Assembly (NCBI RefSeq): GCF_023611505.1
Contig: NZ_CP097843.1
Span: forward strand, 1,984,001-2,048,000
Source: Streptococcus oralis
GTDB taxonomy: Bacteria > Bacillota > Bacilli > Lactobacillales > Streptococcaceae
Reading direction: 5' to 3'
Length of the DNA: 64,000 nucleotides
Both the position numbers and the translations under genes were made by a program. This document shows, piece by piece, positions 3,772 to 33,096 of this stretch (positions are counted from its first letter, which is position 1; every line of letters begins with the position of its first letter). The notes beneath the pieces were generated by a model that saw nothing but the letters and a program-made list of their open reading frames with translations, searched no databases and was not told where the DNA came from.

Positions 3772-3800
3772 ATAATCGAAAATATCTTTTAAAGGGACAA
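3772..3800 (-). promoter_or_regulatory. transfer-regulon promoter copy 1
   Basis: On the minus strand TTGTCCCTTTAA begins at 3800, and GATTAT lies 17 bases after the TTGTCC (3772-3777). It precedes the TrsC-like gene. It is one of seven copies of the same arrangement in this element. Confidence 0.65.
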
Positions 3801-3832
3801 TAGCATTTTCACCATCATCCTTCAGGAAAGAA

Positions 3833-3864
3833 TTGTACAAAAAGTTATATACTTTTTTGAACAA
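3833..3864. promoter_or_regulatory. 32-bp palindromic operator-like site, copy 1
   Basis: This is a near-complete palindrome: TTGTACAAAAAGTTAT followed by its slightly mismatched reverse complement. It sits 33 bases upstream of the TTGTCC box of promoter copy 1. Related sites occur at 6876-6907, 10378-10409 and 20739-20770. Confidence 0.6.
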
Positions 3865-3866
3865 TA

Positions 3867-3893
3867 AAAGAAGCCTCAATCTTGAGACTTCTT
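3867..3893 (-). terminator. terminator of the BRCT gene
   Basis: On the minus strand GAAGTCTCAAGATTGAGGCTTC folds into a hairpin followed by TTTTATTG. The stem overlaps the last codons of the BRCT protein gene. Confidence 0.75.
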
Positions 3894-4157
3894 GACTAAA
3901 TCAAAGAATGATTCTTCAGAAAGGAAAGTGATGGATTGACCTTCTGATATTCTTCTAAGCGCTGCATCATGCTTTTTAGACCGTTTATCTGGATCAAAAA
4001 GATCCAACTGCTTGTGTCCTAAAACCAATATATCTGTTTTATTAGATACATAGCTTTGCACGACAGCTCCTTTACTTTCTAAAAATCGTATGGCTTCTTC
4101 TCGAGTTAGAGGACGTAGGCTTCCTGTGATAACAATGTTCTTTTCTGTTAAATCCAT
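3876..4157 (-). CDS. single-domain BRCT protein
   Basis: The whole 93-residue protein is one BRCT domain. NIVITGSLRPLTREEAIRFL gives the first strand and helix, then KGAVVQSYVSNKTDILVLG follows, with a C-terminal helix ending FFDLVKK. The pattern is closest to the BRCT domain at the end of bacterial NAD-dependent DNA ligase, but no ligase is present. BRCT domains bind protein or nicked/branched DNA. Lying between the VirB6-like gene and the VirB4 operon, it is likely co-transcribed with the VirB6-like gene (8 bases apart). Its role in transfer is unknown. Confidence 0.85.
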   Translation of the reverse strand: MDLTEKNIVITGSLRPLTREEAIRFLESKGAVVQSYVSNKTDILVLGHKQLDLFDPDKRSKKHDAALRRISEGQSITFLSEESFFDLVKKSQD

Positions 4158-4165
4158 AGTTCAGC

Positions 4166-6205
4166 CTATTCTTCTTCATCGTCACTCTCAGCACCTGTTA
4201 TATGACGTCCTCCCTGCATACGCTGTCCTGCTTGTTGCATTTGTTGGTTCATGTAATTCATTTGATTCATGCTCTGTTGAAATTTTTGTTGAGAAGAATC
4301 AGGCTGTGCTGGTGGTTGTGATTCTGAAACTGGTGCATCTGCAGGTGGATTTGGATCTTGAATTGGGGACTCCATTTCTTCAGCTGAAGGAGTTGGATCG
4401 ACAATAGGTGCATCTGTTGTTCCTGGATCAATTGGAGGCTCAGGAATATCAATTGGTCCAGGCTGCTGATCAATTCCAGGAACAGCATCATTTTTCAGAG
4501 CGTTATAGGTCGCATTTTGAGCAGAGGCAGCTTTATCATCCAGCTTATCTAAAGCGCTACCAACTGCCCCTTTCGTATTTTGCATGGCTTCAAAAGCTTT
4601 CCATTCTGCCAAATCAACCATATTACTTACACCACCTTTGGCCGCATTCATCAAGCCCTGGTCTTTTACAGAGTTCAAAGCACCTTGAATACCACCTCCA
4701 GTTCTGGCAAGGCTATTTCCTAGAATCTGACTTCCTTTAGACAAGGCATCTGGAGCTTTTTTAGCCATATCCATACCAAATTGGCCAAGTGCCATACCAC
4801 CATTAAAGAGACCACCTGCTCCAGCCGCAAAGGCATTCCCCATCATCATAGCACCTAGCAATTGTTGAGCTGTTTCACTATGACCAGTCGAAACTCCAAG
4901 CCAGCGCTCGATCATGGCCACTCCTTGCATTGCTGCAAAGAATACTCCAACATAGACAAAGGCAGCGGCGAGACACTGTTCCCACATATTGAGTCCATCA
5001 AAGAATCCGCCAGAAAGCTTAGATACTGCTGAAACAGAAAGGATTGGTAAATCTCTGAAAATCTCAAGTGTTACACGCATAATGATAACTTCAAAGAAAA
5101 TTCCTGCTAAAGCACCACCAATCGTTCTTAACAGCTCTTTGTATTTCTTTGAGTTTGATAGGGAGCTATAACCAAGAATCGGAGAAATCATTGCTTCAAT
5201 CAGAATATCAAAAACTGATTTGACGAGCTTGATGATCATGCTGACCAATAGAACAATCAGGATAATGTACTGAAGAAACATCCCTATCCAGTTGACTTTA
5301 TAGCGCATATAAACGGATTCAAAGGCACTCAATTGATTAATGAGGCGATGTTCTGTGATGCTTTCAACTCCAGTATTATTGGAATTCAACTTATGGAGGA
5401 ACAAGCCTTTAATACCAGGTATTTTGTCTTCGCCCTCTATATCCTCCAACATTTTTGGATTTGTTGTACCATAGTTTGCCCCAAAATCAATCTTGGTCGC
5501 AAAATCAGTCGTGTCCCGCTGTTCAGGGTTATCCGTGATATTATTGACAGGGGTAGAGCCCTCTTGAACAGGCTTGATATAGCCATAGTCATCCATTGGA
5601 AACAACTCCGTAGAAAAATCCTTGTAGATCAAGACTTTTAAGTCTACCACATTATTTTTCATGGGTTGAAGAGCCAAGGAGGAAGTCGGTTGACTGCCAG
5701 ATGGCGCTTCACTAGTGACCGTCTGGATAGACATGGCATCCTGTGCCACTGCTGTTGAGATAGTGGTCAAAGCTAGTGGCAATACAGCAGTTACAGCCGT
5801 TACCAAAAGGAAATTCGTGATGACTCCTTTGTATTTGACTGGCTTTGTAAAAACTCCTGCGACGGCCGACACGACCAAAATCAGAGTAAACAAGGACGTC
5901 CCCAATAGCTGAAACCAGTAAAAGAACTGGCCTATAATCGTCTTCTGGTCGCCCAGATAACCGAAGAGGCCAAAGAGCTTAAACATATTATTAAAAACAT
6001 GTTCTAGGCTGGAAGTGATTTGATAAAGAGCCTTCGCAATCCCTCCTGGTAAATAGGTGAGAAATGCCATAAATGCAGGAGTCGGTTCTAAATAGTTATT
6101 CCAATAGGAATAGAACTCTGCCAGCTTTTTTGCATTCTCACCAGTAATCTTGCCATTGAGATCTTTGACCTCATTCACCAAATCTGAAAAGGTTTGATAG
6201 TGCAC
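4166..6205 (-). CDS. VirB6/TrsL-like polytopic channel protein
   Basis: The predicted length is 679 residues using GTG at 6205 with AGAAGG 7 bases upstream. The longer reading frame (to 6307) would run through the promoter at 6249-6278, so it is rejected. Several membrane segments cluster at about residues 75-165 and again at 310-480, separated by an extracellular region (about 170-300). The C-terminal 130 residues are Pro/Gln-rich and acidic (NQMNYMNQQMQQAGQRMQ, then ESDDEEE) and probably cytoplasmic. The architecture matches VirB6/TrbL-type proteins that form the membrane channel. It is driven by its own copy of the shared promoter. Confidence 0.75.
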   Translation of the reverse strand: MHYQTFSDLVNEVKDLNGKITGENAKKLAEFYSYWNNYLEPTPAFMAFLTYLPGGIAKALYQITSSLEHVFNNMFKLFGLFGYLGDQKTIIGQFFYWFQLLGTSLFTLILVVSAVAGVFTKPVKYKGVITNFLLVTAVTAVLPLALTTISTAVAQDAMSIQTVTSEAPSGSQPTSSLALQPMKNNVVDLKVLIYKDFSTELFPMDDYGYIKPVQEGSTPVNNITDNPEQRDTTDFATKIDFGANYGTTNPKMLEDIEGEDKIPGIKGLFLHKLNSNNTGVESITEHRLINQLSAFESVYMRYKVNWIGMFLQYIILIVLLVSMIIKLVKSVFDILIEAMISPILGYSSLSNSKKYKELLRTIGGALAGIFFEVIIMRVTLEIFRDLPILSVSAVSKLSGGFFDGLNMWEQCLAAAFVYVGVFFAAMQGVAMIERWLGVSTGHSETAQQLLGAMMMGNAFAAGAGGLFNGGMALGQFGMDMAKKAPDALSKGSQILGNSLARTGGGIQGALNSVKDQGLMNAAKGGVSNMVDLAEWKAFEAMQNTKGAVGSALDKLDDKAASAQNATYNALKNDAVPGIDQQPGPIDIPEPPIDPGTTDAPIVDPTPSAEEMESPIQDPNPPADAPVSESQPPAQPDSSQQKFQQSMNQMNYMNQQMQQAGQRMQGGRHITGAESDDEEE

Positions 6206-6248
6206 TAAAGGTACCTTCTTTCTTTTTAAGATACCCCTATCATATTCG

Positions 6249-6278
6249 ATAATGGCAAAATCGTTTTTAAAGGGACAA
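6249..6278 (-). promoter_or_regulatory. transfer-regulon promoter copy 2
   Basis: TTGTCCCTTTAA on the minus strand is followed by CATTAT, with 18 bases after TTGTCC. It lies about 45 bases upstream of the GTG chosen for the VirB6-like gene. Confidence 0.65.
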
Positions 6279-6291
6279 TGAAATTCTGACA

Positions 6292-6322
6292 AGAAAAAAA
6301 GCCTCAAGTAATTGAGACTTTT
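6292..6322 (-). terminator. terminator after the lipoprotein gene
   Basis: On the minus strand AAGTCTCAA and TTGAGGCTT form a stem with a four-base loop, followed by seven T. It lies directly downstream of the lipoprotein stop codon. Confidence 0.8.
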
Positions 6323-6327
6323 GTAAG

Positions 6328-6828
6328 TTAATCTGCGATTCCATTGAAATCATAGAAAGCATTGTCTTCTTTGTAGCCACGACGTAGTTCAATGATTCGG
6401 ATTTTTTTACCACCCTCGGTCAAGACCACTTGATAATAAGAGCGAGCTTCTTCAGGTTTATCTATATCTTTATAATCAACAGCTATTGTAAAGTTATCCT
6501 TTCCTTTCAGCTGACTCTCTAAACTAACAATAGTCCCTCTGAAAGCGGCTGGAATCCTCTTCACTTGTTCTTCTGAAAGAACACTATACTTAATGTCTCT
6601 ATCATCACCATTTGAGACTGTCTTATTCTCTTTATCAAATTTTACGGTAGATCCTGCTCCACCCGTAAAAACACCGCTCTCATAACCATCTTCTGGAGAA
6701 GAGCCTGTATAGCTATCCTTTAGCACATTTTTAGCAATAGAATCAGGTGATTTTTGACCACATGCTCCTAGTAAAATCAAGGCTAACCCTACTAAAACAA
6801 TTCTTAAAAAGTGCTTTGCTTTCATCAT
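6328..6828 (-). CDS. lipoprotein of unknown function
   Basis: This 166-residue protein has a type II signal peptide: basic start, hydrophobic core, then the lipobox LLGAC with Cys at about residue 23. The mature part is mixed alpha/beta and ends in a basic segment (KKIRIIELRRGYKEDNAF). It is probably anchored to the outer face of the membrane. It has its own consensus promoter (TTGCAA, 17 bp, TATAAT) overlapping a palindromic operator-like site, and its own terminator, so it is controlled separately from the flanking transfer genes. Entry exclusion or a channel accessory role is conceivable but unproven. Confidence 0.75.
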   Translation of the reverse strand: MMKAKHFLRIVLVGLALILLGACGQKSPDSIAKNVLKDSYTGSSPEDGYESGVFTGGAGSTVKFDKENKTVSNGDDRDIKYSVLSEEQVKRIPAAFRGTIVSLESQLKGKDNFTIAVDYKDIDKPEEARSYYQVVLTEGGKKIRIIELRRGYKEDNAFYDFNGIAD

Positions 6829-6854
6829 TTTTTCTCCTAATCATTATTTACCTC

Positions 6855-6883
6855 ATTATAACAAACATCATTTTTTCTTGCAA
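6855..6883 (-). promoter_or_regulatory. promoter of the lipoprotein gene
   Basis: The -35 TTGCAA (6878-6883) and -10 TATAAT (6855-6860) are separated by 17 bases on the minus strand. This differs from the seven TTGTCC promoters in the element. Confidence 0.75.
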
Positions 6884-6907
6884 GTGTTTATATAACTTAT
6901 TGTACAT
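6876..6907. promoter_or_regulatory. 32-bp palindromic operator-like site, copy 2 (one half degenerate)
   Basis: The minus strand reads GTACAATAAGTTATATAA, matching one half and the core of the palindrome at 3833-3864. It overlaps the -35 of the lipoprotein promoter, a position expected of a repressor site. Confidence 0.5.
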
Positions 6908-6911
6908 CTTT

Positions 6912-9900
6912 TTAGATAACTTCATCTGCAAAGAAATCATCTCCGTCATCATAATAATCATAGTCACCGTGAATAACACTAGCTGCAGCTGCCTGGAATA
7001 ATTCATCTGTAGATGTAAATGATTGGGATTGTACCTTTTGTCCTTTACTGTGACGACCTGATAGTTTAGGAGTTTCGCCATTGTTGCTGAGGAGAGGCAT
7101 AGTCAAACGTTGCCTCCAGTCTATGATGTTGTTGAAGGCTGTACCAGCATCAACTGCTATCTCCTGAAGCTCTAGCTCACGGTGTGCACTTTCGACTGGA
7201 ATATCCGCAAGAGTCATCGATGTATCAAACTCCTCTTGTAAGAACATGTACTTGTAAGGGAAGCTGTTCTTATCATGTGCGAAGATTGGATCCGTTGTGA
7301 CCTTACGTCCAACATTATCCCGTCCCTTGACCCCACGTAAGATAACCGCTTCTCCTTCCTGGAGCTTGGCCAATTGCGTTGGTGTCAACAATTCTTGTTT
7401 TGGATTCTCGACAGCTACGTTTGGATTGGCTTCGTCCAGAATATTGCTGGAACGCCGTCTTCTGGTGATGGTACGTGTACCCAACTCAGCACTAAATTTC
7501 TTATTGGTATCTGGAGACGTTGTTTTGATGTAAACCTTCAACGAACAGTTATCCATAATCGTTTGAGCAACATTTTGACCATAGACATCATATAGTTGCT
7601 CCAGGTTTTGAATCCATAGGTAATAGAGAATGTTTTGCCCCAATCCAATGGAGATTTTCTTATCCATGTGAGGAATGGCTGGCATGTTTGTAAACTCATC
7701 CAAGATATGGAGAATGCGATTGATACATTTCCGACCATTTGATAAGGCAAGCTCATAGTTAGCATTGAATAGCTGATCTAAGAGTAAAGAAACAATCCCA
7801 TTATACTCTGTTCGGTTTGGCGGTGTTACCAGGTAGATGACTTTGGGTTTATCTGAATAGACCAGTTCAATATCCGACTCCTGAAGAAGATTTTGGGTAT
7901 CTTCTTTATCCTTTAAGACGGTTATATCGATATGATCTAAAATCGGCTTCTTGGTATACTCATCTAGTTCTAGACTATCTCCATCTTTTCGATAGACTTT
8001 CTCAGCTGAGAATTGAAAGACTTGATCCCGAACTGAAGACTGACCATTGTTCTTATGATTGAAATCAATCGTTACCGTAAACTGATCTGGAAGTTTAGGC
8101 TCGATGGCATAGGTCAGATATCCTTCCCCATCAACAAGAGCTGTAGCTTGCTTCACATAGTCAACTTTCTTTTCGACTTTCCCCCATTTCTTCAATCCTG
8201 TAATCGTTACTTTAGCAGTCTTGTGCTTGAACTCGTTTTTGAGTTGGCTATTGGTGCTTGATCTCAGCTTGACAGACAATCGACGTGGGAAGCCAACAGA
8301 CTCTAAATCAATAGAGTTTTTAGAAGTCAGTTTGGCCACATTGTCTTGTAAGAACAAGTTGATCCCTGTCATCATGCTAGAGTAGACATTACCTTTAGTC
8401 TCATCACCACCAAAATCTGAAGCACGAAATTCAATATCCGCCATTTGTCTAAATTTCGAGAATTGTTTTTGATTGACCTGTCTCAAATTATCAAAATAGA
8501 CTGTGATTTTTGACTTCTTCGACACTTGTTGTTCTCTGCTTGGATTCTCGACGATTTCTCCAGCACCATCCACAAAAACTTCTTCAGATCCCATTGTCGC
8601 CAAGAATTTCGCAACGTTAGGGATGGTAATGGTATCCCAGGCATCATCTTCACCATTTTGATAGGTTTCATTAGCTCGATCCATCAAAGCCATTGTCAGA
8701 GCATTAAACAGGGATATAGAAGACTTACGGAAGTATTCCGCATTTCCCTTCTCTCCTCCCTTTTGTTTGGGATAAATGGATTCTGCGACTGCGTTGACAT
8801 AGGTTTGAGTCTTCTCATAGTAACCCTTCTTTGCGGCTGCTATGGCCAAAGCTAGGGGATTGTAAGACATAGACCAATCCATATTTTGGAAAGAAAGAAC
8901 ATTAACTTCATAGCCACGTTGTCTCATGAGTTTATAGGAGGCTTGATAATGCTCCCCTTTCGGATCTGCAAGAACCATCGATGGCTGCAATTCCGCACGA
9001 CTATTGATTTCAATGGCTGGAGTGATCTGACCTTCCCCCTTACCTGAACGAGTCATCCCAATCCCTAACAGATTCGTTGGCTTATCTTCAATGTAGTAGT
9101 AACCTGAAGGAAAAGCTAACATGCCTAAAATCCGTTCCGCATTGGTCACATATCGACTGATTTTCCTATTTTGCCATAAGATTTGGGTTCTGAGTGTTTG
9201 CCCTGCTAAATCATGAGTCAGCTCATGAAATACTGGAGCCCCACCTTCACCTGGATAAGTTAAAGCTTTATTCGGAATCTTTTTGTATTGACGACGAATT
9301 TCATCAATCGTCACAAATCGGTCATCTCCCTCTTCATTATTGTTATAGTCTCGAAACTGCTCGAAGTTTATCCAGGCAGATTTCCAGGCGATAACTAAGC
9401 CCAATAGAAAGATTGGAAATGCTAAAATCGGTGCTATCAAGAAGACTTTAGCGTTCAATAAACTTTGAAATAAGAGGCTGTTTAAGTCAAAGTTTACGGC
9501 CTTACTAGCATCTTTAAACGACCAAATACTAAAATAGAGAAAGCGGATTGTAGCTCTCAAAACAGTAACCAGGTAATTGGTTAAGATAAAAGCAATAAAG
9601 CTAAAACCTAATCCCATATAAACGAAGCTGCGGTAACTTTTAAAATAAAGAATGGGTTTCATTTCTTTATCAAAACGTTTCCGTTCTCGTTTAACAAAAG
9701 GGAGGGTATAGAATATCCTGAAGAAAACATTCCAAAGAATGAGAGAGACAAGCGCAAAGATTTTAGGTAAGAATGACTTCATTCCATTGAGCAGCCCTCT
9801 AACTGATTTGAACCATACTTGTTTCCAATCAATTCCTTTACGATTTTTCCAACCTCTTTTTATTGCTTGCCTTAGACTACTCTTTCCTGCTAATAACCTT

Positions 9901-10290: not shown

Positions 10291-10338
10291 TGTTGCACTC
10301 CTTTCTTATTATTTCTTAATTCCCCTCTATTCTAAGGG

Positions 10339-10368
10339 ATAATATCAAATTCTTTGTTAAAGGGACAA
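10339..10368 (-). promoter_or_regulatory. transfer-regulon promoter copy 3
   Basis: TTGTCCCTTTAA on the minus strand is followed, 18 bases after TTGTCC, by TATTAT. It drives the 81-residue protein and the coupling protein. Confidence 0.68.
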
Positions 10369-10963: not shown

Positions 10964-13900
10964 TTAGTTTTCTTTCGACTTACGAAAGCCTGCAAGACTC
11001 AACAATCCCAAAATCATTCCCACAACTGGAAGCATGCTTGCTGCTGTTCCAGTGTTTGGAAGTGATGGCTGCGGTTGTGGCTTGCCTGGTTCTTTAGGCT
11101 CTGGTTTTGGAGGCTCTGGCGTTGTGGTTGTCACTTTCGCCGTCATCTCTTGTAAATTGACTGTATTGATAAAGGTATTCTCAACTTCTCCAGCCGAGAT
11201 ACGTTGTACTTCGATTGTGAAGTCCGCATCGAAGCTACCCTTAACTCCTAAAGAGTTTAGGAAGTCCTGGTTGATAACGTAAGACCATTTGCCTGCTTTC
11301 TCGTCCCATTTGACGGCTACAATCTTCTTGAGGAAGTCAGGATTTGTATCCTGGTTCACTTCAAACAAGAAGGCATAAGCTGTACCTTTGGCAATCTTGT
11401 CACCAGCCTTGACTACTTTGCCATCCTTCAGGATGACATCATATGGCAAGATAAGGTCTTTAGCAGCTGTATACTCTGTCCCCTTGAAAATCCCTGACCA
11501 CTTACCTGTGAATCGATCATGAACCACATCCAACTGGTCACTACCATCATATTGGAAGAGGCCATCATGTTTGGTTGGAACGGTTACACCGTCAAGTAGA
11601 TAGCGGATGTATTGGCCAATCTGTACTTCTTGGCCATCCAAGACTTTTTTATTATCTTTTTGATCCAGGGCATGTTTCTCTGGCTTCACATCGGGAACCG
11701 AGACAGTGACAAGGTTTGATTGATAGCTATTGCCAAAGTCGATTTGCTTAAAGCTATTTTCAACTTTATCCCCTGCTTTAACCAGGAGCTTAGCTGGGAG
11801 ATCAATCGTCACGTTTTTATTTTGCTTCACGTAATTTTGGTAGAAACTCTGAGAGTTCTTCGGTGTCCAAAGATAGAACTCACCTTTAGGGTTAAAGTTT
11901 AATTCTTTCAGAATCTTATTGATTGCATCTGTACGTCCTTTGTCTGAAAGGACGTGATGCATCTCAAAGAGATCTTTCACATCTTGTCCTGCAGCAGTCA
12001 TCTTGATATTGCTGTGGTCAACTGTGAAGGCATTGTCTTGAACATCATCCAGGATAGCAAACTTCTTACCAAGTGCTTGCGCTGAAGCAAGAGTTTTGGT
12101 GTATGGGCTGTAATCTGTCATTAAGCGGAAGGTCACGTTACGATCAAATGTTGTCGCATTATTGATATCCTTACCAGAGCGATCCAGAACCGATTTTACT
12201 GGTTTAGGTGGCTTCGGTGTGTAGTTCGTAACAGTGTTTGAGAAAACTTCGTAGTTATTCACTAACACTTTATAGGTGTTATCATAGAAACCTTTATCAT
12301 AGATTGGCTTCCAGGTAATCACAGGAGCTTCTAAGCGTTTCCCTTCGTAAGTCGCAGTAAAGGTATACGTATTCTTTACTGCATCATAGATAACGCCCCA
12401 CCCTGCTTTCTCTGCAGCTGCCTTTGTAACAGCTACATCAGGAACTGCTCCAGCTTCAAGTGGATCAATGATGGTAATCTTGTCCCCTTTTTTCAGGTTC
12501 GCATAGATATTGTCATGATTCAAGGTGTAGGTCTGAGTAGCATTTTTAACAACTGTTTGACCGTTTGTGTTGGTCTTATCTGTATCTGCTACAGATTTGC
12601 TGACAACTGGCTTATACTGCAATTTATAGCCGTGATAGTTTGCTGATAACTTCTGATTTTTCGTCTCAGAAAGTGTTTTAAGAGCCAAGGTTGGCTTAGC
12701 TGGATTTTTCGCTTTAACCAATTCAGCTGATACAGGTTCAGTCTGAACTGGCTTCACGGTTGTTTTTGTGATAGTTGCAGTAGCTGGAACTTCAACGACT
12801 GGCGCTACAACCTTTGTATTCAAAGCAAACCAATAGGTTTGGCCATTTGGACTTTCTGGTCCATCCCATTGAATGAATTCGGTTGTGAAGGCTGTCCCTT
12901 CCTTAAAGACTCCAAGAGCAGCACCCTTGTACTGATATGCTGAAGAGGAAGTATCCCAAAGATGACCTACCTCTTCCTCACGATTATAGTCTTCTGCATA
13001 AACATAGCCATAATCCTTGTTTTGAGTAACAGTTGAGCCATTGATTTCAACATGTGTCCCATTGATGGCTTTTGCACCTTCCCACCCGATAGGGTTGTGG
13101 TTTAGAGACGAGTAGGTTAAGGCTGCAGGTGTCTTTTCAGAAGCCTTGAAAGCTACTTCTTGGCCTTCCTCATTGTTGTAGTAGTAGGTATCTGTAACCA
13201 GGAAGTTCATGTAGTCCGCAGCTCCACCTGTTCCATCGTTTCGAGCTACTACAAAGCCCTCAGTCGGATCATTTAAGACATAGACATCATTTAGGCCCGT
13301 TTTACCTTGGTTTACAATTTGAAATTTTCGATGGATACGAGAAATATTGTGTTGTTTCCCATCCTCGGTTGTGACTGTTAAGCCGTTTAACCCAGTATAA
13401 TCAATTTCTGTTGTCCAACCATTGCCCACATCTTTGTATTTCAAGACTTTGGTTGAGTCTAGAACACGAGTATAGCCTGATGTTCCATTTGATGAAGCGA
13501 TGTAATCTTTGGTAGTTACCTGCGCTCCTGAAGCAGAGGATTCTACTGTTGCTTCAGGATTAGCTGTTGCAAGACTTAGAGCCTGTAAGACAACCTCTTT
13601 TGTGAACCCTTCCGTACTTGTTTTAGATTGAAGTTCATTGTATTTCTTCTGCCATTCAGCCTGGTTCTGCTTAGCTTTATCAAAGGCCGTTTGGTTTTGT
13701 TTGGCAATTTTGTTGGCTTCATCTACTGAAGAAACTTCCTGTGTTTTAGAAGTTAAAAGTACACCAGATTTTTTCAAATCTGCTGACTTACGATCAGCAT
13801 CTTGATTGACTTGATCACTAGCATTCTTCTTCTCTGTGTAGGCAGCCATCAGGGCTTTGTTAAGCTCCACTTTGCCTTTTGCAGTCGCAATAGCCTGGTC

Positions 13901-14671
13901 ATTTTGTTTCTTCAATGCTTCTACTTCTGCGACTGAAGAGACCGTACGTGTAACGACTTTAACGTCAACCTTTTCTTTCTTCAGCTGTTCAGATACGCTT
14001 TCTACCGCTTTGTTTAGAGCAGTAGCTTGTTCAACAGTAGCATCATACTTAGCTTTTTCACCCAGGTATTTTGTTACTGCTTGTTGGTTATCTGACAAGA
14101 CCTGTTTAGCTGTTTGAGTAGCTTTCTTGTTTTGGTCTGCTGAACCATCTGTGGCAGTCGAACCTTCATTCGTCACTGTGACAGTTGTTGCCCCTTCATG
14201 CTTGGCTTTTTCATCAGCTACAAATTGATTGTTAGCGTGAATAGCTTCCTGTGCTTCCTGGAAGGCTTCATTGTTTTTGACTTGTTTTGTAGTCGTTTCT
14301 TCCAGTTCCTTGACTTGCTTGTCCTGATCTTGTTTAATCTCAGACTTAGACTGTTCAAGTTTGGGAGCAGTGGTATCTGTTCCCTTATCAACACTTGATG
14401 TTTCAGATACAACTACTCCAGCTTTTTTGGCCTTGTCAGCAGCCTTTGTGACTGCTCCATTATCAATCGCTACAGACTGGCTTCCTGTTGTTTTGCCAGC
14501 TTGTTTAGCGTATGCGTTGTTGTCGTTTTTAGTTTCAGGCTGTACTGCTTCATCCGCAAATGCTGAACCTGCAGAGAAGGCTACAATACCTGCAACTGCA
14601 ATTCCTGATACTAAGCCTTTAGCCCATTTTTTCTTACGGAAATATCCGTGTCCTTTTGTTTTTTCTGTCAT
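10964..14671 (-). CDS. antigen I/II-family LPXTG surface adhesin
   Basis: The 1235-residue precursor has a long signal region (FRKKKWAKGLVSGIAVAG, cleavage near AFADEA). An Ala-rich alpha-helical repeat region spans about residues 130-345, with repeated units of the form SSVAEVEALKKQN and SSVDEANKIAKQN. A V-type lectin-like domain follows at about 360-625, then a short Pro-containing stretch. Beta-rich C domains lie at about 690-1170, a proline-rich wall spacer (PEPPKPEPKEPGKPQPQPS) after them, and LPNTG with a hydrophobic anchor and charged tail at the end. The layout matches SspB/BspA-type adhesins that bind salivary glycoproteins and other bacteria. It is shorter than the 1500-residue oral SspA/B because the proline repeats are reduced. 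Confidence 0.88.
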   Translation of the reverse strand: MTEKTKGHGYFRKKKWAKGLVSGIAVAGIVAFSAGSAFADEAVQPETKNDNNAYAKQAGKTTGSQSVAIDNGAVTKAADKAKKAGVVVSETSSVDKGTDTTAPKLEQSKSEIKQDQDKQVKELEETTTKQVKNNEAFQEAQEAIHANNQFVADEKAKHEGATTVTVTNEGSTATDGSADQNKKATQTAKQVLSDNQQAVTKYLGEKAKYDATVEQATALNKAVESVSEQLKKEKVDVKVVTRTVSSVAEVEALKKQNDQAIATAKGKVELNKALMAAYTEKKNASDQVNQDADRKSADLKKSGVLLTSKTQEVSSVDEANKIAKQNQTAFDKAKQNQAEWQKKYNELQSKTSTEGFTKEVVLQALSLATANPEATVESSASGAQVTTKDYIASSNGTSGYTRVLDSTKVLKYKDVGNGWTTEIDYTGLNGLTVTTEDGKQHNISRIHRKFQIVNQGKTGLNDVYVLNDPTEGFVVARNDGTGGAADYMNFLVTDTYYYNNEEGQEVAFKASEKTPAALTYSSLNHNPIGWEGAKAINGTHVEINGSTVTQNKDYGYVYAEDYNREEEVGHLWDTSSSAYQYKGAALGVFKEGTAFTTEFIQWDGPESPNGQTYWFALNTKVVAPVVEVPATATITKTTVKPVQTEPVSAELVKAKNPAKPTLALKTLSETKNQKLSANYHGYKLQYKPVVSKSVADTDKTNTNGQTVVKNATQTYTLNHDNIYANLKKGDKITIIDPLEAGAVPDVAVTKAAAEKAGWGVIYDAVKNTYTFTATYEGKRLEAPVITWKPIYDKGFYDNTYKVLVNNYEVFSNTVTNYTPKPPKPVKSVLDRSGKDINNATTFDRNVTFRLMTDYSPYTKTLASAQALGKKFAILDDVQDNAFTVDHSNIKMTAAGQDVKDLFEMHHVLSDKGRTDAINKILKELNFNPKGEFYLWTPKNSQSFYQNYVKQNKNVTIDLPAKLLVKAGDKVENSFKQIDFGNSYQSNLVTVSVPDVKPEKHALDQKDNKKVLDGQEVQIGQYIRYLLDGVTVPTKHDGLFQYDGSDQLDVVHDRFTGKWSGIFKGTEYTAAKDLILPYDVILKDGKVVKAGDKIAKGTAYAFLFEVNQDTNPDFLKKIVAVKWDEKAGKWSYVINQDFLNSLGVKGSFDADFTIEVQRISAGEVENTFINTVNLQEMTAKVTTTTPEPPKPEPKEPGKPQPQPSLPNTGTAASMLPVVGMILGLLSLAGFRKSKEN

Positions 14672-14697
14672 TTAATTGTTTCCCTTTCCATTTCACC

Positions 14698-16946: not shown

Positions 16947-16987
16947 AGAAATCCTCCTTTGTTTTTTTGACAACGTTAGTATAATAG

Positions 16988-17017
16988 ATAATTGAAAAAA
17001 ATTTTTTAAAGGGACAA
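16988..17017 (-). promoter_or_regulatory. transfer-regulon promoter copy 4
   Basis: TTGTCCCTTTAA on the minus strand is followed, 18 bases after TTGTCC, by AATTAT. It lies between the Clp-like gene and the pilin-like gene. Confidence 0.68.
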
Positions 17018-20636: not shown

Positions 20637-20675
20637 ATCATTCTCCTTCTACTTCATTTTCTGTCATTGTAAGCT

Positions 20676-20705
20676 ATAATTAAAAAATATTTTGTAAAGG
20701 GACAT
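20676..20705 (-). promoter_or_regulatory. transfer-regulon promoter copy 5
   Basis: ATGTCCCTTTA on the minus strand (one mismatch to the consensus) is followed 18 bases later by AATTAT. It drives topB and the Clp-type gene. Confidence 0.63.
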
Positions 20706-26949: not shown

Positions 26950-26989
26950 TTTTCTTCTCCTTTCTCTTTTTATCCTTCTATTCTATTCA

Positions 26990-27019
26990 ATAACCAAAAA
27001 ATCCCAGTTAAAGGGACAA
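26990..27019 (-). promoter_or_regulatory. transfer-regulon promoter copy 6
   Basis: TTGTCCCTTTAA on the minus strand is followed, 18 bases after TTGTCC, by GGTTAT. It drives the small acidic protein and the primase/LtrC gene. Confidence 0.66.
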
Positions 27020-27036
27020 TATAATTCCATTTTTCA

Positions 27037-27066
27037 ACAAAAAAAGTCATTGCTTTTACAATGACT
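27037..27066 (-). terminator. terminator of the relaxase operon
   Basis: On the minus strand AGTCATTG and CAATGACT form a perfect 8-bp stem around a six-base loop, followed by seven or more T. It starts one base after the relaxase stop codon. Confidence 0.88.
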
Positions 27067-27067
27067 C

Positions 27068-29437
27068 TTATATACTGTGCCCCTTCTCCTCCAGATCTTG
27101 TCTCTCATCACTTCTCTCACGTTCCATGAGGGCTTTTTTATTTGCACGTTGGGCCCTTTGAAGAGAATTGGTCAAATTTCTCATAAAATCTGTATTGATG
27201 ATTGCTTTACCTTGCGATTGTTGGACGTTTTTTCTTTGCAGATTCTTCCTTTCTTGCATTTTATGTGAAACAGCTTGAGCCAACTGACTTTTCTGATTAC
27301 TTTCCTCCTCCGGCAATAATTTTTGATAGAGTGATTTGAGTTCAGAAAATCCTTTCGCATTCTCCTGTTTTAATTTTTTAATAGTCACTTGATCAGTCGT
27401 TTGTGAAATTTCTTTGTTTCGACTGTAAATCTGATGTTTCAGCTGAAAAATTGAGATATGGGTCTGTAGCTCTTCTATGTAGCTATCTTTCGTAACAGGA
27501 TAGCCCTTTAGAATAGTCAGCACTCCTTCATCTTGAAGAGGTTGAACTGCCGCTAATTCTCCCTTCAAACGTTTGATAGGTGCTTGAATTGCTAATGAAT
27601 CAGCCTTTTCTACTGAAAATGAAACACTATCTTCTAACTGGTTAGCAAGAGATTGTTTTAGAGATTGGTCTGCTTCACCTAGTTTATAATTTGGAGTCAG
27701 TTGCAATTCAGTCAGCTTCAGTCTTTGAAGAATCTCCTGCTTTTTCAATTCAACAAATGGCTTATCGGTTTCAAGTGGTTGAATTTGATCAAAAAGAGTT
27801 TTACGAACTAATAAACTACTCTGTTTTTCCTCCAATAAGCTCAATTTTAAAGCATAGCGGAATGTTCCTAACTCATTCCGCTCTCTTAATGATCGATCAC
27901 TTTTCTTTTTAGCCGCTTCTACAAGATCTTTCAAATCAGCTGAAGAAAATAGCGACAAGTCTCTTAAACTAAGTTGCTTCTCCAGTAAGTCTTCTTTCAT
28001 TTGACTCACATCATAAACTAATTCCCTAACATATTCAGGACGTCCCAAACCTGTTCCGTGTTTATCATAAGCAGTATAGACTGGTTTTGTGATTTCAATA
28101 GGTTTTGCTCCATCTTTCAAATCATAACCCAGTTTTTTCCAGGCATCTAGTGTTTTGATGACACTTGCGTTAGGATCCTGGGCTAAAATTAATTTTTGAT
28201 TCTTTACTGAGAAATTGGCCAAATTTTTTTCCAGCCGAACGTCAGCTATTTCAGGAGCATTCTCACGAAATAGGTGCAAGATCTTATTTGCTAGTCGTTC
28301 TCTCAATTCCTTCTCTCGACTCGCTATTAATTGCTGCAGATGATAGCCTGCAGCCTCCTGTTGTGTTTTCTCAACACGACCATCAAGTTTCCGAATCTTT
28401 TCGTAGGTTGATTTTTTTCCAGCCGAATAAGCTCCTCTATAGGTTTCTAGGAAGTCCTTCGTTTCTTTCAGGAATTCTTGATAGAGCTCTTTCCCATCAT
28501 TTTCTAAATAGGAATCCAGATAGCGATCAATGAAGAATTTACTGACTGCAAAATCTCTTGCATTTGAGCCATAGCGCCATTTTTTATCCATAGGCAAATG
28601 GTTGTAAGCCTGCTCCAAAAAATTTTTTTCAGCCGAAGAACGAACCTTCTGATCTCTAAATACAGAATTGATCAACTCACTTCTGATATTCGCCAAGATT
28701 TGTTCTCGTCGAACAATTATTCCTCTAGTCTGTTCATTCAACAGACCATGAAAAACATCACTTTTAAAACGCTCAATGGTTTTCTGGGAAAAGTTACCTC
28801 TATATTCCATTCTTCCACGAGGTCGATAGAAAAATTTATCTCTTGCAGATTCAACTTCAGATAAACCAAAATGCACATGAATATTGTCCGTGTTCAAGTG
28901 AATGTTAGCCCACCAAAATGATGAATCAGATAAGCCTTCTTTTTCAATCAACCTTGGCAATGCTTCACGTATGACAGACTTGATAGCTTGCTGATCGACT
29001 TTCCCAGTTTCCAGATCATATAATCCCTCCTTAGCCAAAAAATCATTATCAAAAGAGATAACACCCTGCCATAGAAGAGAGCCATTTTGATAAGCCTGTT
29101 CTAACTTACTTTTCAATTCAGTTACTTTGCTACGCTGCAAGTAATTGGCCTCTTTTGTAAAAATAGCTGTCATCTCTTCATTTTGATTTTCAGTAGCATA
29201 AGAGCGATTCATATAATTGATGTATTCCTGGAAATTAAGTTTTGTTTCTGGAACCTCAGCTTGGATTTTTTGTAGTTCATCTTCAGTTAGAGATTCAATA
29301 TTTTGTCTGTGTGTTTCTAAATTTAATTCATTATCAACCTCAACAGCTTCGTCTCTATTGGTGTAGTCTACAAAGCCACTATTTGCTTCAGTGTATTGCA
29401 GCATGAAAGTAATACTTGGACTAGAAGATACGTTCAT
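27068..29437 (-). CDS. MobL-type relaxase
   Basis: This is a 789-residue DNA-nicking and strand-transfer protein. The N-terminal 300 residues hold the relaxase domain. SITFMLQYTEANSGFVDYTN and NYMNRSYAT are typical of MobL (MOBP2-like) relaxases, the HUH metal-binding motif is NIHVHFGLSE near residue 182, and SFWWANIHLNTD precedes it. Tyr residues near the N-terminus are candidate nucleophiles. The remaining 450 residues are helical and charged. It is the last gene of an operon that begins next to the candidate oriT at 31936-32347, and it ends at a strong terminator. Confidence 0.88.
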   Translation of the reverse strand: MNVSSSPSITFMLQYTEANSGFVDYTNRDEAVEVDNELNLETHRQNIESLTEDELQKIQAEVPETKLNFQEYINYMNRSYATENQNEEMTAIFTKEANYLQRSKVTELKSKLEQAYQNGSLLWQGVISFDNDFLAKEGLYDLETGKVDQQAIKSVIREALPRLIEKEGLSDSSFWWANIHLNTDNIHVHFGLSEVESARDKFFYRPRGRMEYRGNFSQKTIERFKSDVFHGLLNEQTRGIIVRREQILANIRSELINSVFRDQKVRSSAEKNFLEQAYNHLPMDKKWRYGSNARDFAVSKFFIDRYLDSYLENDGKELYQEFLKETKDFLETYRGAYSAGKKSTYEKIRKLDGRVEKTQQEAAGYHLQQLIASREKELRERLANKILHLFRENAPEIADVRLEKNLANFSVKNQKLILAQDPNASVIKTLDAWKKLGYDLKDGAKPIEITKPVYTAYDKHGTGLGRPEYVRELVYDVSQMKEDLLEKQLSLRDLSLFSSADLKDLVEAAKKKSDRSLRERNELGTFRYALKLSLLEEKQSSLLVRKTLFDQIQPLETDKPFVELKKQEILQRLKLTELQLTPNYKLGEADQSLKQSLANQLEDSVSFSVEKADSLAIQAPIKRLKGELAAVQPLQDEGVLTILKGYPVTKDSYIEELQTHISIFQLKHQIYSRNKEISQTTDQVTIKKLKQENAKGFSELKSLYQKLLPEEESNQKSQLAQAVSHKMQERKNLQRKNVQQSQGKAIINTDFMRNLTNSLQRAQRANKKALMERERSDERQDLEEKGHSI

Positions 29438-29455
29438 TATTTTCCTCTCTTTGAA

Positions 29456-30016
29456 TTAAAATAATCCATTTTTCCTTAAAAGAGCGTAGTCTTTTAATAA
29501 CGGTTGTAATTCTTCAGGTTCAACTTGAAAATCATTAATCCACCGTCCTGATTGAGAAATATGTAATTCTTTTTGCTCTTCAACAAATTGCATGGGTATC
29601 AATAAAATATTTGGTTTTTCTAACTCTGAACCACTTTCTCGTTCTAAAAAGGCGACAATAAAATCTTGATTCCCTTTTGTCCTAAATTGCCAGTGATGGG
29701 AGTTCCCATTTTTCCTTTTATATAATGAGCTATATTTTACATCAATCGTTAGACCATCTAGCCAAAAATCATATACTGGATTATTTTTCTTGAAATACTT
29801 ATTCGCATCCGTTGCATCTGGAACATACTTTTGAAAAAGCTCCTCGGCCATTCCCCCGAGTTTAGCTGTCCTAGAACCATATTGAATTTTATCTTGAATT
29901 TTCAGGCAACCGCTCTTAATCAATTTCAAATGAGCTATATGAGTAGGCAGCCCTGACTGTCTCACCGCTTCATGAAAATCTCCTGTTTCTAAATAGATCT
30001 TAACAACATCTACCAT
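29456..30016 (-). CDS. putative PD-(D/E)xK-fold nuclease-like protein in the mobilization operon
   Basis: This 186-residue protein has an N-terminal helical DNA-binding-like part (about 1-55). It is followed by YDFWLDGLTIDVKYSS near residues 80-92, then HWQFRTKGNQDFIVAFLE. The D...xDVK spacing and following strand-helix layout resemble the PD-(D/E)xK nuclease core found in restriction and mobile-element proteins. That assignment rests on motif reading only. It is encoded between the accessory protein and the relaxase, so it may act on or protect the transfer intermediate. Confidence 0.5.
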   Translation of the reverse strand: MVDVVKIYLETGDFHEAVRQSGLPTHIAHLKLIKSGCLKIQDKIQYGSRTAKLGGMAEELFQKYVPDATDANKYFKKNNPVYDFWLDGLTIDVKYSSLYKRKNGNSHHWQFRTKGNQDFIVAFLERESGSELEKPNILLIPMQFVEEQKELHISQSGRWINDFQVEPEELQPLLKDYALLRKNGLF

Positions 30017-30026
30017 TTACTATACC

Positions 30027-30476
30027 TCAATGAGAATGTTTAATTGTTTGACCACGTGCAACATCTTCTTGAATAACATCGTTAATCCGTGCCATTAATT
30101 CATGCTGTGTAGGATCCAGTCGTGAATGAATAGATTCCAAATCTTGAACATCAAAATCATCTTTCGTAATAGCATGAAAGTTGGTTAGTGTTAAATAGAG
30201 AATTTGATCAAGTTGACGATGAATTGCCTTGTTGTCATTTCCAGAATCAAAGGCATCCCCCAAATTTTTTTCCAGCTGAGTCAGTCGCTCATAGAAATTT
30301 TTTCCTTCTCCTAATTCAATAAAGAGTTTATAAAAAACTTCAATCAAAGTGACAAGCGTTGCTGAATTATTTCGATATTGTTTCTGCAAAGCAGACGATT
30401 CTTTCAAGTAGGATTTTATTTCCTTAAATTTTTCATGTGTTTCTTCGCTAAAATATAAGCTAAGTCTTGGATTCAT
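30027..30476 (-). CDS. MobC-like relaxosome accessory protein
   Basis: This 149-residue protein begins NPRLSLYFSEETHEKFKEIK, a ribbon-helix-helix type opening, followed by long amphipathic helices. It lies in the same operon as the relaxase, 10 bases upstream of the nuclease-like gene. Proteins like this bind oriT DNA and help load the relaxase. The specific family is not certain. Confidence 0.6.
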   Translation of the reverse strand: MNPRLSLYFSEETHEKFKEIKSYLKESSALQKQYRNNSATLVTLIEVFYKLFIELGEGKNFYERLTQLEKNLGDAFDSGNDNKAIHRQLDQILYLTLTNFHAITKDDFDVQDLESIHSRLDPTQHELMARINDVIQEDVARGQTIKHSH

Positions 30477-30486
30477 TTTTCCCTCC

Positions 30487-31275
30487 TCAATTTTTCTGAG
30501 ATGATCCTGTCAAATAATTGATTTTATATCCTGGTTGAATATTAAAGATATATACATCAAATGAGATCTCATCATCTTCAATGCTCTGTGCTTCCATACG
30601 AACTCCTCTAGCAACTAATTCCACATTTCTAAATATAGGAGTTACTCGATAGCGAACATGGTGGTTCGTATTTTTTATGTAGTTAGCAATTTTATTTTCA
30701 TAGTAAACCATTGATAATTGTTCGTCTTCAAAATTTGCATTTAAAGCACGTGTACCTGTAAATAAATTTTTAGCATTCGCATTCTCTCCACTTAATTGAA
30801 AACCGATTAAGTGAGAACGATTATATAAATAATCTTCTTTCCCGTTGAAAATTATTTTTTTATTTTTCCATCCTGTGGGTGTGATAGACGAAATAGATTC
30901 TCTATCTTCAGTTGGCATCAAATCTTTTCCCAACATCGCTTCAGCAATTCCTACACGATTTAAAAAATCTAGATCAGAATATTTTTCCCAGCTGCCACTT
31001 TCTAAACTCAATTCGCTTTTTGTAAATTGTGATTTTTCATTGACGATAATCACTTGATTTTTTCCGTCATACTCCTTCGATTTCAAATCATCATTTTTCA
31101 GAGTAGAATTCAAATTTGAGTTGGGATTTTTTTCTTCAGCTGAATCGGCTATATTCAATTGATTCGGGATATCATTTTGTGTCAAGCCAGATTTGATAGC
31201 ATTAAAATTGTTGGGTTGTACGATAAAGATGGCAAGAAAAATGAGAATGATGAACAGAGATTTATTCTTCTTCAT
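30487..31275 (-). CDS. secreted DNA/RNA non-specific endonuclease (EndA-like)
   Basis: The predicted length is 262 residues from ATG 31275; a TTG two codons upstream is an alternative. An N-terminal signal/anchor helix (about 5-25) is followed by a low-complexity linker. The nuclease domain has YNRSHLIGFQLSGENANAKN near residue 150, the variant of the DRGH active site seen in streptococcal secreted DNases, followed by LFTGTRALN. The product is expected to act outside the cell or at the membrane. Its place inside the relaxase operon is unexpected; possible roles are clearing extracellular DNA during mating or DNA-uptake interference. Confidence 0.85.
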   Translation of the reverse strand: MKKNKSLFIILIFLAIFIVQPNNFNAIKSGLTQNDIPNQLNIADSAEEKNPNSNLNSTLKNDDLKSKEYDGKNQVIIVNEKSQFTKSELSLESGSWEKYSDLDFLNRVGIAEAMLGKDLMPTEDRESISSITPTGWKNKKIIFNGKEDYLYNRSHLIGFQLSGENANAKNLFTGTRALNANFEDEQLSMVYYENKIANYIKNTNHHVRYRVTPIFRNVELVARGVRMEAQSIEDDEISFDVYIFNIQPGYKINYLTGSSQKN

Positions 31276-31277
31276 TT

Positions 31278-31625
31278 TCAAACACCACCTGACCGTCGTT
31301 CAGCTTCAAGTGCAGATACATCATCCATAAAATGTAACCAATTTGTGGTTAGTTCATTTACAATATCTTGTTTAACATTTAAAGCAGAAAGAGAAATTTC
31401 ATTCTTCAACATCAATTCTAAAATCTGACTTTGTTGTTTTTTGATATCGGACAATGTTTCCGAAAATTGATTATCGTACAAATTCAATCCGTCATTCATT
31501 ACGATATTTTGAACTTGCGACAACATAAATTCATTAAAGCTTGGATAGTTATATTTTTTTGAAATAGCCTGAAGTTGTTCAAACATATCGTCGGGAACAT
31601 TTCGAATTAAAAAATTTTTAGTCAT
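31278..31625 (-). CDS. ribbon-helix-helix type accessory protein
   Basis: This 115-residue protein starts with NFLIRNVPDDMFEQLQAISK, matching the strand-helix opening of Arc/MetJ-type DNA-binding proteins, and then has a long helical tail. ATG 31625 is preferred over an upstream start at 31646 because of GGTGG upstream. It overlaps the end of the next RHH gene by 8 bases. Probably an oriT-binding regulator or relaxosome component. Confidence 0.65.
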   Translation of the reverse strand: MTKNFLIRNVPDDMFEQLQAISKKYNYPSFNEFMLSQVQNIVMNDGLNLYDNQFSETLSDIKKQQSQILELMLKNEISLSALNVKQDIVNELTTNWLHFMDDVSALEAERRSGGV

Positions 31626-31935
31626 CACTTTCCACCTCTCCTTCATACTCTAACCAGCGTGAAATATGATCACCATAGCAATCCATTTTTTCTTCAAATT
31701 CAGATAGTATCCTTGTCTGTTTTTTCATTTGTTCCAGAACATGGTCAGAAGCTAATTTCATATTTTCTAAATGAGCCACATACAAATCTTGAGCACGATT
31801 AAATTTTCCGTACTCAATTTTTTCACGACAGATTGAGAGCAGAAAATCATTTAATGATTTGGCTTTATTTTTTTTTGCAAGAGCTTTTAGATAGCTAACC
31901 TCTTCCTGTGTTAATCCTCTAATGAGAAGGTTCAT
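31618..31935 (-). CDS. ribbon-helix-helix type protein, first gene of the mobilization operon
   Basis: This 105-residue protein begins NLLIRGLTQEEVSYLKALAK and continues with SLNDFLLSICREKI, the pattern of ribbon-helix-helix proteins. A helical tail follows. GGAGG is 6 bases upstream of ATG 31935. The gene abuts the palindrome-rich region 31936-32347, so the protein is a good candidate to bind it both as relaxosome part and as autoregulator. Confidence 0.7.
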   Translation of the reverse strand: MNLLIRGLTQEEVSYLKALAKKNKAKSLNDFLLSICREKIEYGKFNRAQDLYVAHLENMKLASDHVLEQMKKQTRILSEFEEKMDCYGDHISRWLEYEGEVESDD

Positions 31936-32153
31936 CTGTATCCTCCATCTTATTATTTATTGTCCTAAAAGCAGGACTTCTTTTTTCTTTTGTCGAAGCA
32001 AAAGCAAAAAGAAGCAAAAAAGAAAACTTCAACCTCGCAACATCACGAACCGATTCGGTTCTATTTTTGCGGTTTTTCAACACACTAACACACACAGAGG
32101 GACTAAGGTCCTTTTTAGGTGTGTTGTGGTAGAAAAGAGCATAAGGGAAACTG

Positions 32154-32187
32154 ATATCACGTGCCGTGATATGTTGATAGTATCAAC
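32154..32187. repeat. adjacent perfect palindromes in the candidate oriT
   Basis: ATATCACG-TGC-CGTGATAT is followed with no gap by GTTGATA-G-TATCAAC. Both are exact, and the two are flanked by the direct repeat TGATATCA at 32152 and 32196. Confidence 0.9.
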
Positions 32188-32221
32188 GTTTCCAATGATA
32201 TCAATTTTCTCGGTTTCACCT

Positions 32222-32310
32222 ACTTACACACACATGCTATACTTACCTTTACACACTTTATAGGTGTTATACTTACACTGTATTTCTTCTTTACATACTT
32301 TTACTTACAC
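32222..32310. repeat. iteron-like direct repeats
   Basis: ACTTACAC or ACTTACC occurs at 32222, 32241, 32271 and 32303 in the same orientation, two of them within TATACTTAC. Spacing is 19, 30 and 32 bp. Confidence 0.7.
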
Positions 32311-32347
32311 CGTTTTTGACTTCGTTTAGAAGTTCAAAACTCAAAGA

Positions 32348-32635
32348 TTAAGACTGATCTTCAGCTGGAAAGTTTCCTTCTTCACGATTTTTCTTCGCTG
32401 CTAAACGTTGTTCTTTTTCATCTTCTTTGATGAGGTTTAATTCCATTTTTAACTCTTCAAAAATTGATTCATACGACTGATTTTTATTTTTCTTCAATTG
32501 AATTTGAACATAAATTTTACCAATTTGTTTTTGAAGATTCTCTTCTGCTTCTTTACGTTCCTGTTCCAAAAGGGCAACTCTTTTCTTTGCCTCTTCTAGT
32601 TGATTATCAATTTTTTTTAAATCATTTTTGGCCAT
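32348..32635 (-). CDS. coiled-coil protein beside the candidate oriT
   Basis: This 95-residue protein is almost entirely predicted coiled coil (about residues 5-80; LEEAKKRVALLEQERKEAEE) with an acidic C-terminus. It has GGAG upstream and lies 33 bases after the next gene in the same operon. Such short coiled-coil proteins in conjugative plasmids often act as oligomerising accessory factors. No specific family is recognised. Confidence 0.65.
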   Translation of the reverse strand: MAKNDLKKIDNQLEEAKKRVALLEQERKEAEENLQKQIGKIYVQIQLKKNKNQSYESIFEELKMELNLIKEDEKEQRLAAKKNREEGNFPAEDQS

Positions 32636-32668
32636 GATTACTTCTCCTTTTTTCTAATTTCGTATTTC

Positions 32669-33025
32669 TTATTTCCTTAATTTATTTCCTGCAAAGCTGG
32701 TAATTTTTTCTTTTATAATTTGGAAGTTGCTCCACAAATCGCCATCTAATTTTTTCAAATCAATCACATAAACTTCATGATCATTTTTCTTGATGGTTAG
32801 TGTGAAAGAACGTTCATCAATTTTAATTTCCTGTAGAACGAGGTACATTGAAGAAAACATTTCTCCTTTATACCCTGGATCACTATGATAGGTTATTCCA
32901 TATTCATCAATATCCAGCGCAACCCATTTTTGTTTTCTAAGCAAACCTTTTGTACTTGTGAATACAGTACGATGCTTTCTAACTGGTTGATTCTCCCTTG
33001 GTGCTAATTTAAGTTGTTCTTTCAT
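32669..33025 (-). CDS. conserved-looking protein of unknown function, regulon gene
   Basis: This 118-residue protein has a basic N-terminus (RENQPVRKHRTVFTSTKG) and a beta-rich body (YLVLQEIKIDERSFTLTIKK), then a C-terminal helix. The fold could be PH-like or a small beta barrel. It is driven by promoter copy 7 and so belongs to the presumed transfer regulon. Function unknown. Confidence 0.6.
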   Translation of the reverse strand: MKEQLKLAPRENQPVRKHRTVFTSTKGLLRKQKWVALDIDEYGITYHSDPGYKGEMFSSMYLVLQEIKIDERSFTLTIKKNDHEVYVIDLKKLDGDLWSNFQIIKEKITSFAGNKLRK

Positions 33026-33066
33026 TTTTCTGCCTTTCTTTTTTTTGATTGATTCTAGTATAAAAG

Positions 33067-33096
33067 ATAACTAAAAAAAATTTTTTAAAGGGACAA
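33067..33096 (-). promoter_or_regulatory. transfer-regulon promoter copy 7
   Basis: TTGTCCCTTTAA on the minus strand is followed, 18 bases after TTGTCC, by AGTTAT. It drives the two genes next to the candidate oriT. Confidence 0.66.

Follow-up and report, generated by a model that had tools for sequence, protein, structure and literature searches.

A shared putative operator and its candidate regulator in the transfer regulon of a TnGBS-type integrative and conjugative element of Streptococcus oralis

Are the transfer operons of an integrative and conjugative element (ICE) turned on together, and if so, what reads the promoter-like sites that recur in front of them? This question is raised by a stretch of 64,000 nucleotides of Streptococcus oralis (NZ_CP097843.1, positions 1,984,001 to 2,048,000; hereafter the window), which holds part of an ICE of 57,789 bp (57.8 kb) and lies in a genome of 2,063,152 bp that was scanned as a whole. 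An original prediction, drawn from the window alone, had proposed that seven promoters of identical pattern, with TTGTCC as the -35 and NNTTAT as a poor -10, define a transfer regulon that is read by either a dedicated activator or an alternative sigma factor. Our analyses suggest instead that the sites are promoters without a -35 element that carry an operator of 12-16 bp near -46 to -31, and that this operator is likely bound by a 166-residue helix-turn-helix (HTH) protein of the ICE which would turn on the transfer operons together.

Seven sites before the transfer operons

The seven sites and the genes behind them are as follows.

3762..3800, minus strand: promoter 1, box TTGTCCCTTTAA at 3789-3800, TTAT, predicted -10 TATAAT at 3762-3767; before the 113-aa and 215-aa genes and VirB4
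6239..6278, minus strand: promoter 2, box at 6267-6278, predicted -10 TATGAT; before the VirB6-like gene (start 6205)
10329..10368, minus strand: promoter 3, box at 10357-10368, predicted -10 TAGAAT; before an 81-aa gene and the coupling protein
16978..17017, minus strand: promoter 4, box at 17006-17017, predicted -10 TATACT; before a 112-aa gene and the TcpC-like, LPXTG, antigen I/II adhesin and single-stranded DNA-binding protein genes
20666..20705, minus strand: promoter 5, box ATGTCCCTTTAC at 20694-20705, predicted -10 TACAAT; before the topoisomerase and Clp-like ATPase genes
26980..27019, minus strand: promoter 6, box at 27008-27019, predicted -10 TAGAAT; before an 86-aa gene and a 1959-aa primase-like polyvalent protein
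33057..33096, minus strand: promoter 7, box at 33085-33096, predicted -10 TATACT; before the 118-aa and 95-aa genes, the candidate origin of transfer (oriT), a ribbon-helix-helix-like pair, a nuclease and the MobL relaxase

Six of the seven boxes are exact copies of TTGTCCCTTTAA (12-mers ending at 3800, 6278, 10368, 17017, 27019 and 33096), and NNTTAT stands at the predicted offset in all seven, but the box of the site at 20676-20705, ATGTCCCTTTAC, has two mismatches, so the pattern is not identical throughout. Genome-wide, exact TTGTCCCTTTAA occurs six times, always inside the ICE, with none for a reversed-pattern control; TGTCCCTTTA-N14/15-TTAT occurs seven times, also always inside the ICE, with none for its controls. 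At every site the first base of the box lies 69-78 nt from the first start codon of the operon. Terminator-like hairpins were found upstream of the sites at 3800, 6278, 10368, 27019 and 33096, and a search upstream of those at 17017 and 20705 found none. The placing of each copy before a distinct operon holds in outline. The original prediction saw no copy ahead of the relaxase operon, which is wrong for the ICE's own MobL (27068-29437, minus strand; PF18555). MobL is the final member of a set of co-directional genes beginning at the 33096 site; the set contains a 412-bp gap that holds the oriT candidate, and no minus-strand terminator-like site was found in it. The relaxase meant (38903-40534) was probably the one encoded by a nested mobilizable element. 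An antigen I/II-type adhesin gene (10964-14671) sits in the promoter 4 operon and thus within the transfer regulon, an arrangement in which the adhesin would be switched on together with the pore.

In each of the seven sites, TTAT is followed after four bases by a TAnnnT hexamer (in the order of the list, TATAAT, TATGAT, TAGAAT, TATACT, TACAAT, TAGAAT and TATACT), which was used neither in the pattern of the original prediction nor in our own first search pattern. Across 98 distinct sites of this ICE and its relatives the T, A and final T of the hexamer never vary, partly owing to the search matrix favouring them, and the best match to TTGACA at 16-18 nt is 1-3 of six positions in 96 of those sites and four of six in two. 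We read the hexamer as a sigma-A -10 without a -35 element, and the sites as predicted promoters for the main RNA polymerase of the host. Because TAnnnT follows four nucleotides after TTAT at all seven sites and there is no -35, the box would lie at about -46 to -35 in this lineage, reaching about -31 in relatives, with GCA conserved there too. The NNTTAT that had been taken for a poor -10 thus has a better hexamer just beyond it at every site, and the -35/-10 pair first proposed is probably wrong.

Related ICEs have the same two-block layout before orthologous operons. Of 284 genomes of the genus, 37 have MobL. Stretches around these and other matches gave 125 regions upstream of orthologues of the seven first genes, from 28 sequence sets (with this ICE among them and genome G127 counted as two); the downstream block was found in 120 of the regions and both blocks in 117. 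In the 19 genomes whose lineages did not contribute to the matrix, the two-block promoter was detected in 75 of 83 upstream regions versus none of 61 chromosomal controls, so the motif is by no means equally frequent before chromosomal genes. The upstream box varies between ICEs yet largely agrees within each. The types are TTGTCCCTTTAA; TTGTCC[CGT]CTTAACGCA; TTGTCCGCTTACTGCA; T[TA]TTxCCCTTAACGCA and variants; TTGTCC[CT][GCT]TTAGAGCA; TTGTCCCATTAAAAAC; CTTACCCTTTAATGC; and TTGCC[CT]ATTTAAGAAC. Such concerted drift of the box within each ICE argues that its reader is encoded by the element.

A protein that changes with the box

The candidate for that reader is encoded at the right end of the ICE.

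51490..51990, minus strand: 166-aa HTH protein, predicted regulator reading the box, with predicted recognition helix SLSYKQLRRGWRRSD; predicted from its co-variation with the box, its distribution and its predicted fold
52187..52212, minus strand: terminator-like hairpin separating the regulator operon from the end of the ICE

Behind this hairpin the regulator gene opens inward from the ICE end. The protein was found in 41 of the 284 genomes, namely 36 of the 37 with MobL (the exception, G212, is a draft) and five others. It forms 37 clusters among 5.8 billion proteins, has no precomputed Pfam domain and is labelled "modification methylase Sau96I" in some records, a misleading name. Two structure models, with predicted local distance difference test (pLDDT) scores of 80 and 83 and predicted template modelling (pTM) scores of 0.46 and 0.50, have a long helix and a C-terminal trihelical HTH, and weakly resemble serine recombinases and TrpR. 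Four of 31 homologues touch HTH_Tnp_1 in Pfam (best E 4.8e-4), and no sigma family is among the 20 Pfam families that the 31 match at E up to 1. The protein has no FlhC/FlhD match in Pfam, and no match to an ArpU/RinA-type phage late regulator in PHROGs or NCBIfam at E up to 1. As originally noted, no copy of the box stands ahead of this right-hand operon, nor was one found within 700 bp of any of 66 regulator genes of the ICE and related elements. Two database proteins (P0035 and P0036) fuse the N-terminal part of the regulator to the end of the second ribbon-helix-helix-like protein, and are deletion derivatives or assembly errors.

Recognition helix and box are paired across ICEs. Helices SLSYKQLRRGW[RK]RSD and SISYRQLRRGWKRSD go with the box CCCTTTAA, [SA]LFNTRLR..W.RSD and SLTNTRLRRNWSRSQ with CC[CGT]CTTA, PFFSTRIRRNWKRSD with CCGCTTACTGCA, PLSYKQLIRGRKRSD with T[TA]TTxCCCTTAACGCA, and NRSAKRLRSQWKRSQ with CCCATTAA; single boxes that deviate are one CCCTTTAA in G280 and a weak box at the 86-aa gene in G030. 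The pairing could be followed within one clade by comparing ten ICEs (group A) with three others (group B: G155, G277 and G135). Exact TTGTCC is present in 45 of 47 group A boxes versus 2 of 15 in group B, the downstream block being unchanged, and from A to B the regulator drops in identity by 10.3 points overall and by 44.4 in the helix. None of 24 other proteins splits A from B (within-A minus A-B identity, -5.2 to +5.4 points), as exemplified by percent identities of 93.7 within A and 93.5 between A and B for VirB4, on few pairs, and of 83.5 and 83.9 for MobL; a 25th protein, DUF2786, has no group B member. A second case is that of Streptococcus danieliae (G030), where two ICEs in one genome differ correspondingly in helix and box.

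Several results weigh against the pairing, or against the activator reading more generally. In a Mantel test of 16 ICEs, box distance tracked the whole ICE (r 0.79) and the regulator was not singled out, the partial r for p86 (0.44), TopB (0.39) and Clp (0.39) being higher than that for the helix (0.32, permutation p 0.015). The A/B switch of helix and box may be a single event, G155 retains two A-type boxes despite belonging to group B, the VirB-side proteins in that comparison rest on few pairs, and Rep drops by 12 points without a length filter, a result of a partial match in G135 that falls to 0.1 with the filter. No recognizable box was found in a Ligilactobacillus relative (35%), no significant Foldseek match was obtained for the models of the regulator, no promoter-like site was found before its gene, and two box-bearing ICEs of the TnGBS2-like kind considered below are in genomes without that gene. 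Lastly, the activator reading does not explain why almost all sites retain TTATC at about -20 to -16.

The mechanism that we favour would begin with the regulator being made when the element is roused, its gene acting early and the transfer genes late. The regulator would bind at -46 to -31 and recruit RNA polymerase to promoters unable to work alone, whereby the genes for the pore, coupling protein, relaxosome and DNA processing would be turned on together. Possibly, the same protein reads the box as a repressor which silences the transfer operons until it is removed. Polymerase could be obstructed by a protein bound at -46 to -31, the regulator gene stands apart from the operons that would be under its control, and many ICEs are under repressor control. 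We nevertheless regard repression as unlikely, as promoters without a -35 should need help, a fixed spacing of box and hexamer is typical of activators, and repressors often control themselves, whereas no box precedes the regulator gene.

Less probable again is an alternative sigma factor that takes TTGTCC as its -35 and the conserved TTATC region as its -10. Apart from the conservation of TTATC, it has in its favour that a consensus scan picks TTGTCC-18-TATTAT at one site (10368), in line with the pair first proposed, and that a sigma factor is reportedly encoded by ICEs of a ConjTn1549 family (PMC4701971). However, it leaves TAnnnT at a fixed distance unexplained, T is rare at the position formerly taken as -12 (position 24; 13 of 81 distinct sites), and the Pfam scans yielded a single Sigma70_r4 protein (41622-42068), which is part of the nested element and was not found in the 30 other sequence sets. 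Since TAnnnT is at a fixed distance, there is no -35 hexamer and the co-varying protein matches no sigma family, we prefer an activator to a sigma factor. That there is a transfer regulon with a dedicated regulator is well supported.

Still more doubtful is a reading of the box by another ICE protein or a host factor, the 166-aa protein co-changing for another reason. The Mantel test favours no single protein, and the ribbon-helix-helix-like pair and a 149-aa protein are conserved in most of the relatives covered. Against this, none of the 24 other proteins compared follows the A/B switch, DUF2786 (50352-51092) and a 186-aa protein (29456-30016) are missing from box-bearing ICE stretches, and a host factor could hardly differ between the two ICEs of G030. 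That the box is inherited or chance sequence without regulatory meaning is scarcely credible given its confinement to the ICE, the contrast of ICE regions with chromosomal controls and the in-concert drift, even though at two mismatches there was no clear excess in the window (16 matches versus a shuffle mean of 10.3, with 6 of 100 shuffles reaching 16).

The element, its oriT candidate and its satellites

The features on which this section draws are listed below.

52235..52257, minus strand: right terminal repeat of the ICE, with its partner at L007:14469, left of the window, and the 9-bp target duplication TGATAGATT outside
32133..32233, unstranded: oriT candidate, a conserved stretch that contains two inverted repeats and is flanked by the 95-aa gene and the first of the two ribbon-helix-helix-like genes
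L056:1625-11116, L047:5105-15585, and L195 from 10001 to about 19700: three small satellites, TnGBS1-like but without a relaxase

We assign the ICE to the TnGBS family, whose members have a Mutator-like (ISLre2-related) DDE transposase and insert, with duplication of the target, 15-17 bp ahead of the -35 in a sigma-A promoter. The ICE has terminal repeats, the 9-bp direct repeat TGATAGATT and an ISLre2-type (Mutator-like) DDE transposase (L007:14808-16145; NF033529, E 1.4e-66, above the cut-off), and it is inserted upstream of the rpsB promoter (TTGAAA-17-TAGAAT), 16 bp from the -35. PMC4701971 and PMC3942029 describe TnGBS1 and TnGBS2 as ICEs with an ISLre2-type DDE transposase, insertion upstream of a sigma-A promoter and plasmid-like replication. 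The relaxase matches PF18555 (MobL) only, and the relaxase of TnGBS1 is stated to lack PF03432 (PMC7168690); the ICE thus fits the TnGBS1 branch, an assignment by relaxase domain against the published description. The nested mobilizable element, at about 35033-46300 of the window, encodes a serine recombinase, a MobA-type relaxase, a MobC-like protein, the Sigma70_r4 protein and an EF-G-like protein resembling the product of a ribosomal-protection tetracycline-resistance gene. At the ICE left end (L007, about 14568-14690, plus strand), a strong promoter-like TTGACA-17-TATCAT, identified by eye, is followed by hairpins and a T run, possibly a small RNA.

The oriT candidate was matched in 27 of 35 sequence sets; its arms change in step even in the Ligilactobacillus relative, and it is recognizable out to Ligilactobacillus murinus (L197, near 7583). 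An oriT-like sequence also occurs in satellites, which were found by following single boxes away from full ICEs. Those in G114 and G047 are of 9,492 and 10,481 bp, respectively, have terminal repeats and 9-bp duplications, and are located before rpsD. Satellites contain a transposase, Rep, the regulator, the oriT-like sequence (82-84% to the ICE candidate), two ribbon-helix-helix-like proteins, a lipoprotein, a box and VirB6, and the third satellite, from Streptococcus hyointestinalis (G060, L195), has the same layout. The box is directly before VirB6 in all three. Compared with this ICE, the G114 and G047 satellites are 89-91% identical in the regulator (regulators of other ICE lineages, 62% or less), about 78% in VirB6 and 62% in the transposase. 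No homologues of the ICE relaxase, coupling protein or VirB4 were found in these two satellites, and no MobL in their genomes. The ICE of G060 has five boxes, two of which share all 16 bp with the satellite box there, TTGTCCCCTTACTGCA, although the regulators of ICE and satellite are only 57% identical. Partial satellite copies were found in G122, G169 and G212, genomes that also hold MobL; those in G122 and G212 may be hybrids, as ICE-like genes adjoin them.

As the satellites carry the helper's box, they would answer to the same switch: with their box, oriT-like sequence and VirB6 they would be switched on alongside the helper ICE and be moved by its relaxase. A single box also stands before repA_N or the first operon in four of 13 readable TnGBS2-like ICEs (L040, L041, L042 and L043), and is absent in the nine other loci. 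We tentatively suggest, as a possibility that we hold with less confidence than the activator itself, that TnGBS1 ICEs are run by a new activator family whose operator is common to relaxase-less satellites, with their oriT mimic and own VirB6, and to some TnGBS2-like ICEs. Such a Gram-positive helper-satellite network would have one protein set off pore remodelling and the transfer of several elements, with operator and helix co-evolving in each element.

Comparison with known systems

No description of a TnGBS transfer regulator or operator was found in the literature searched, which included parts of PMC4701971 and PMC3942029, although the main TnGBS paper (Guerillot 2013) could hold one; within that literature, TTGTCCCTTTAA was printed only in two unrelated papers. 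The ConjTn1549 ICEs resemble the present one in encoding a transcription factor that may regulate transfer (PMC4701971), but theirs is a sigma factor, and the 166-aa protein shows no sigma family. A specific protein, an operator of 12-16 bp and natural variants of helix and box now make the question of the TnGBS transfer switch directly testable, and the regulator assignment replaces a misleading database name. ArpU/RinA-type late-gene activators of Gram-positive phages are small element-encoded HTH proteins thought to switch on late operons, and the 166-aa protein is likewise small, element-encoded and of HTH type, but without a PHROGs or NCBIfam match to such a family.

The closer parallels are AcaCD of IncA/C plasmids and SetCD of SXT/R391, described in PMC4207636, PMC5389848 and PMC5704250 as the type of an element-encoded master activator of many transfer operons, with an operator that is also found in the satellite SGI1; the same sources give SGI1 a VirB6-type TraG and no relaxase. 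Here too, judging from sequence, a single element-encoded master activator would be common to helper and satellite. AcaCD and SetCD, however, are two-protein FlhCD-like complexes of Gram-negative elements, unlike the single 166-aa protein of Gram-positive ICEs, which has no Pfam family. The G114 and G047 satellites are like SGI1 in being bounded and in having no relaxase, coupling protein or VirB4, and these two and that of G060 are like it in having their own VirB6 behind the helper's putative operator; the satellites are unlike SGI1 in carrying their own copy of the regulator gene. If these satellites do obey the same switch, regulatory parasitism of conjugation of the SGI1 type has a Gram-positive counterpart, with consequences for how cargo nested in such elements spreads, an example here being the putative tetracycline-resistance gene.

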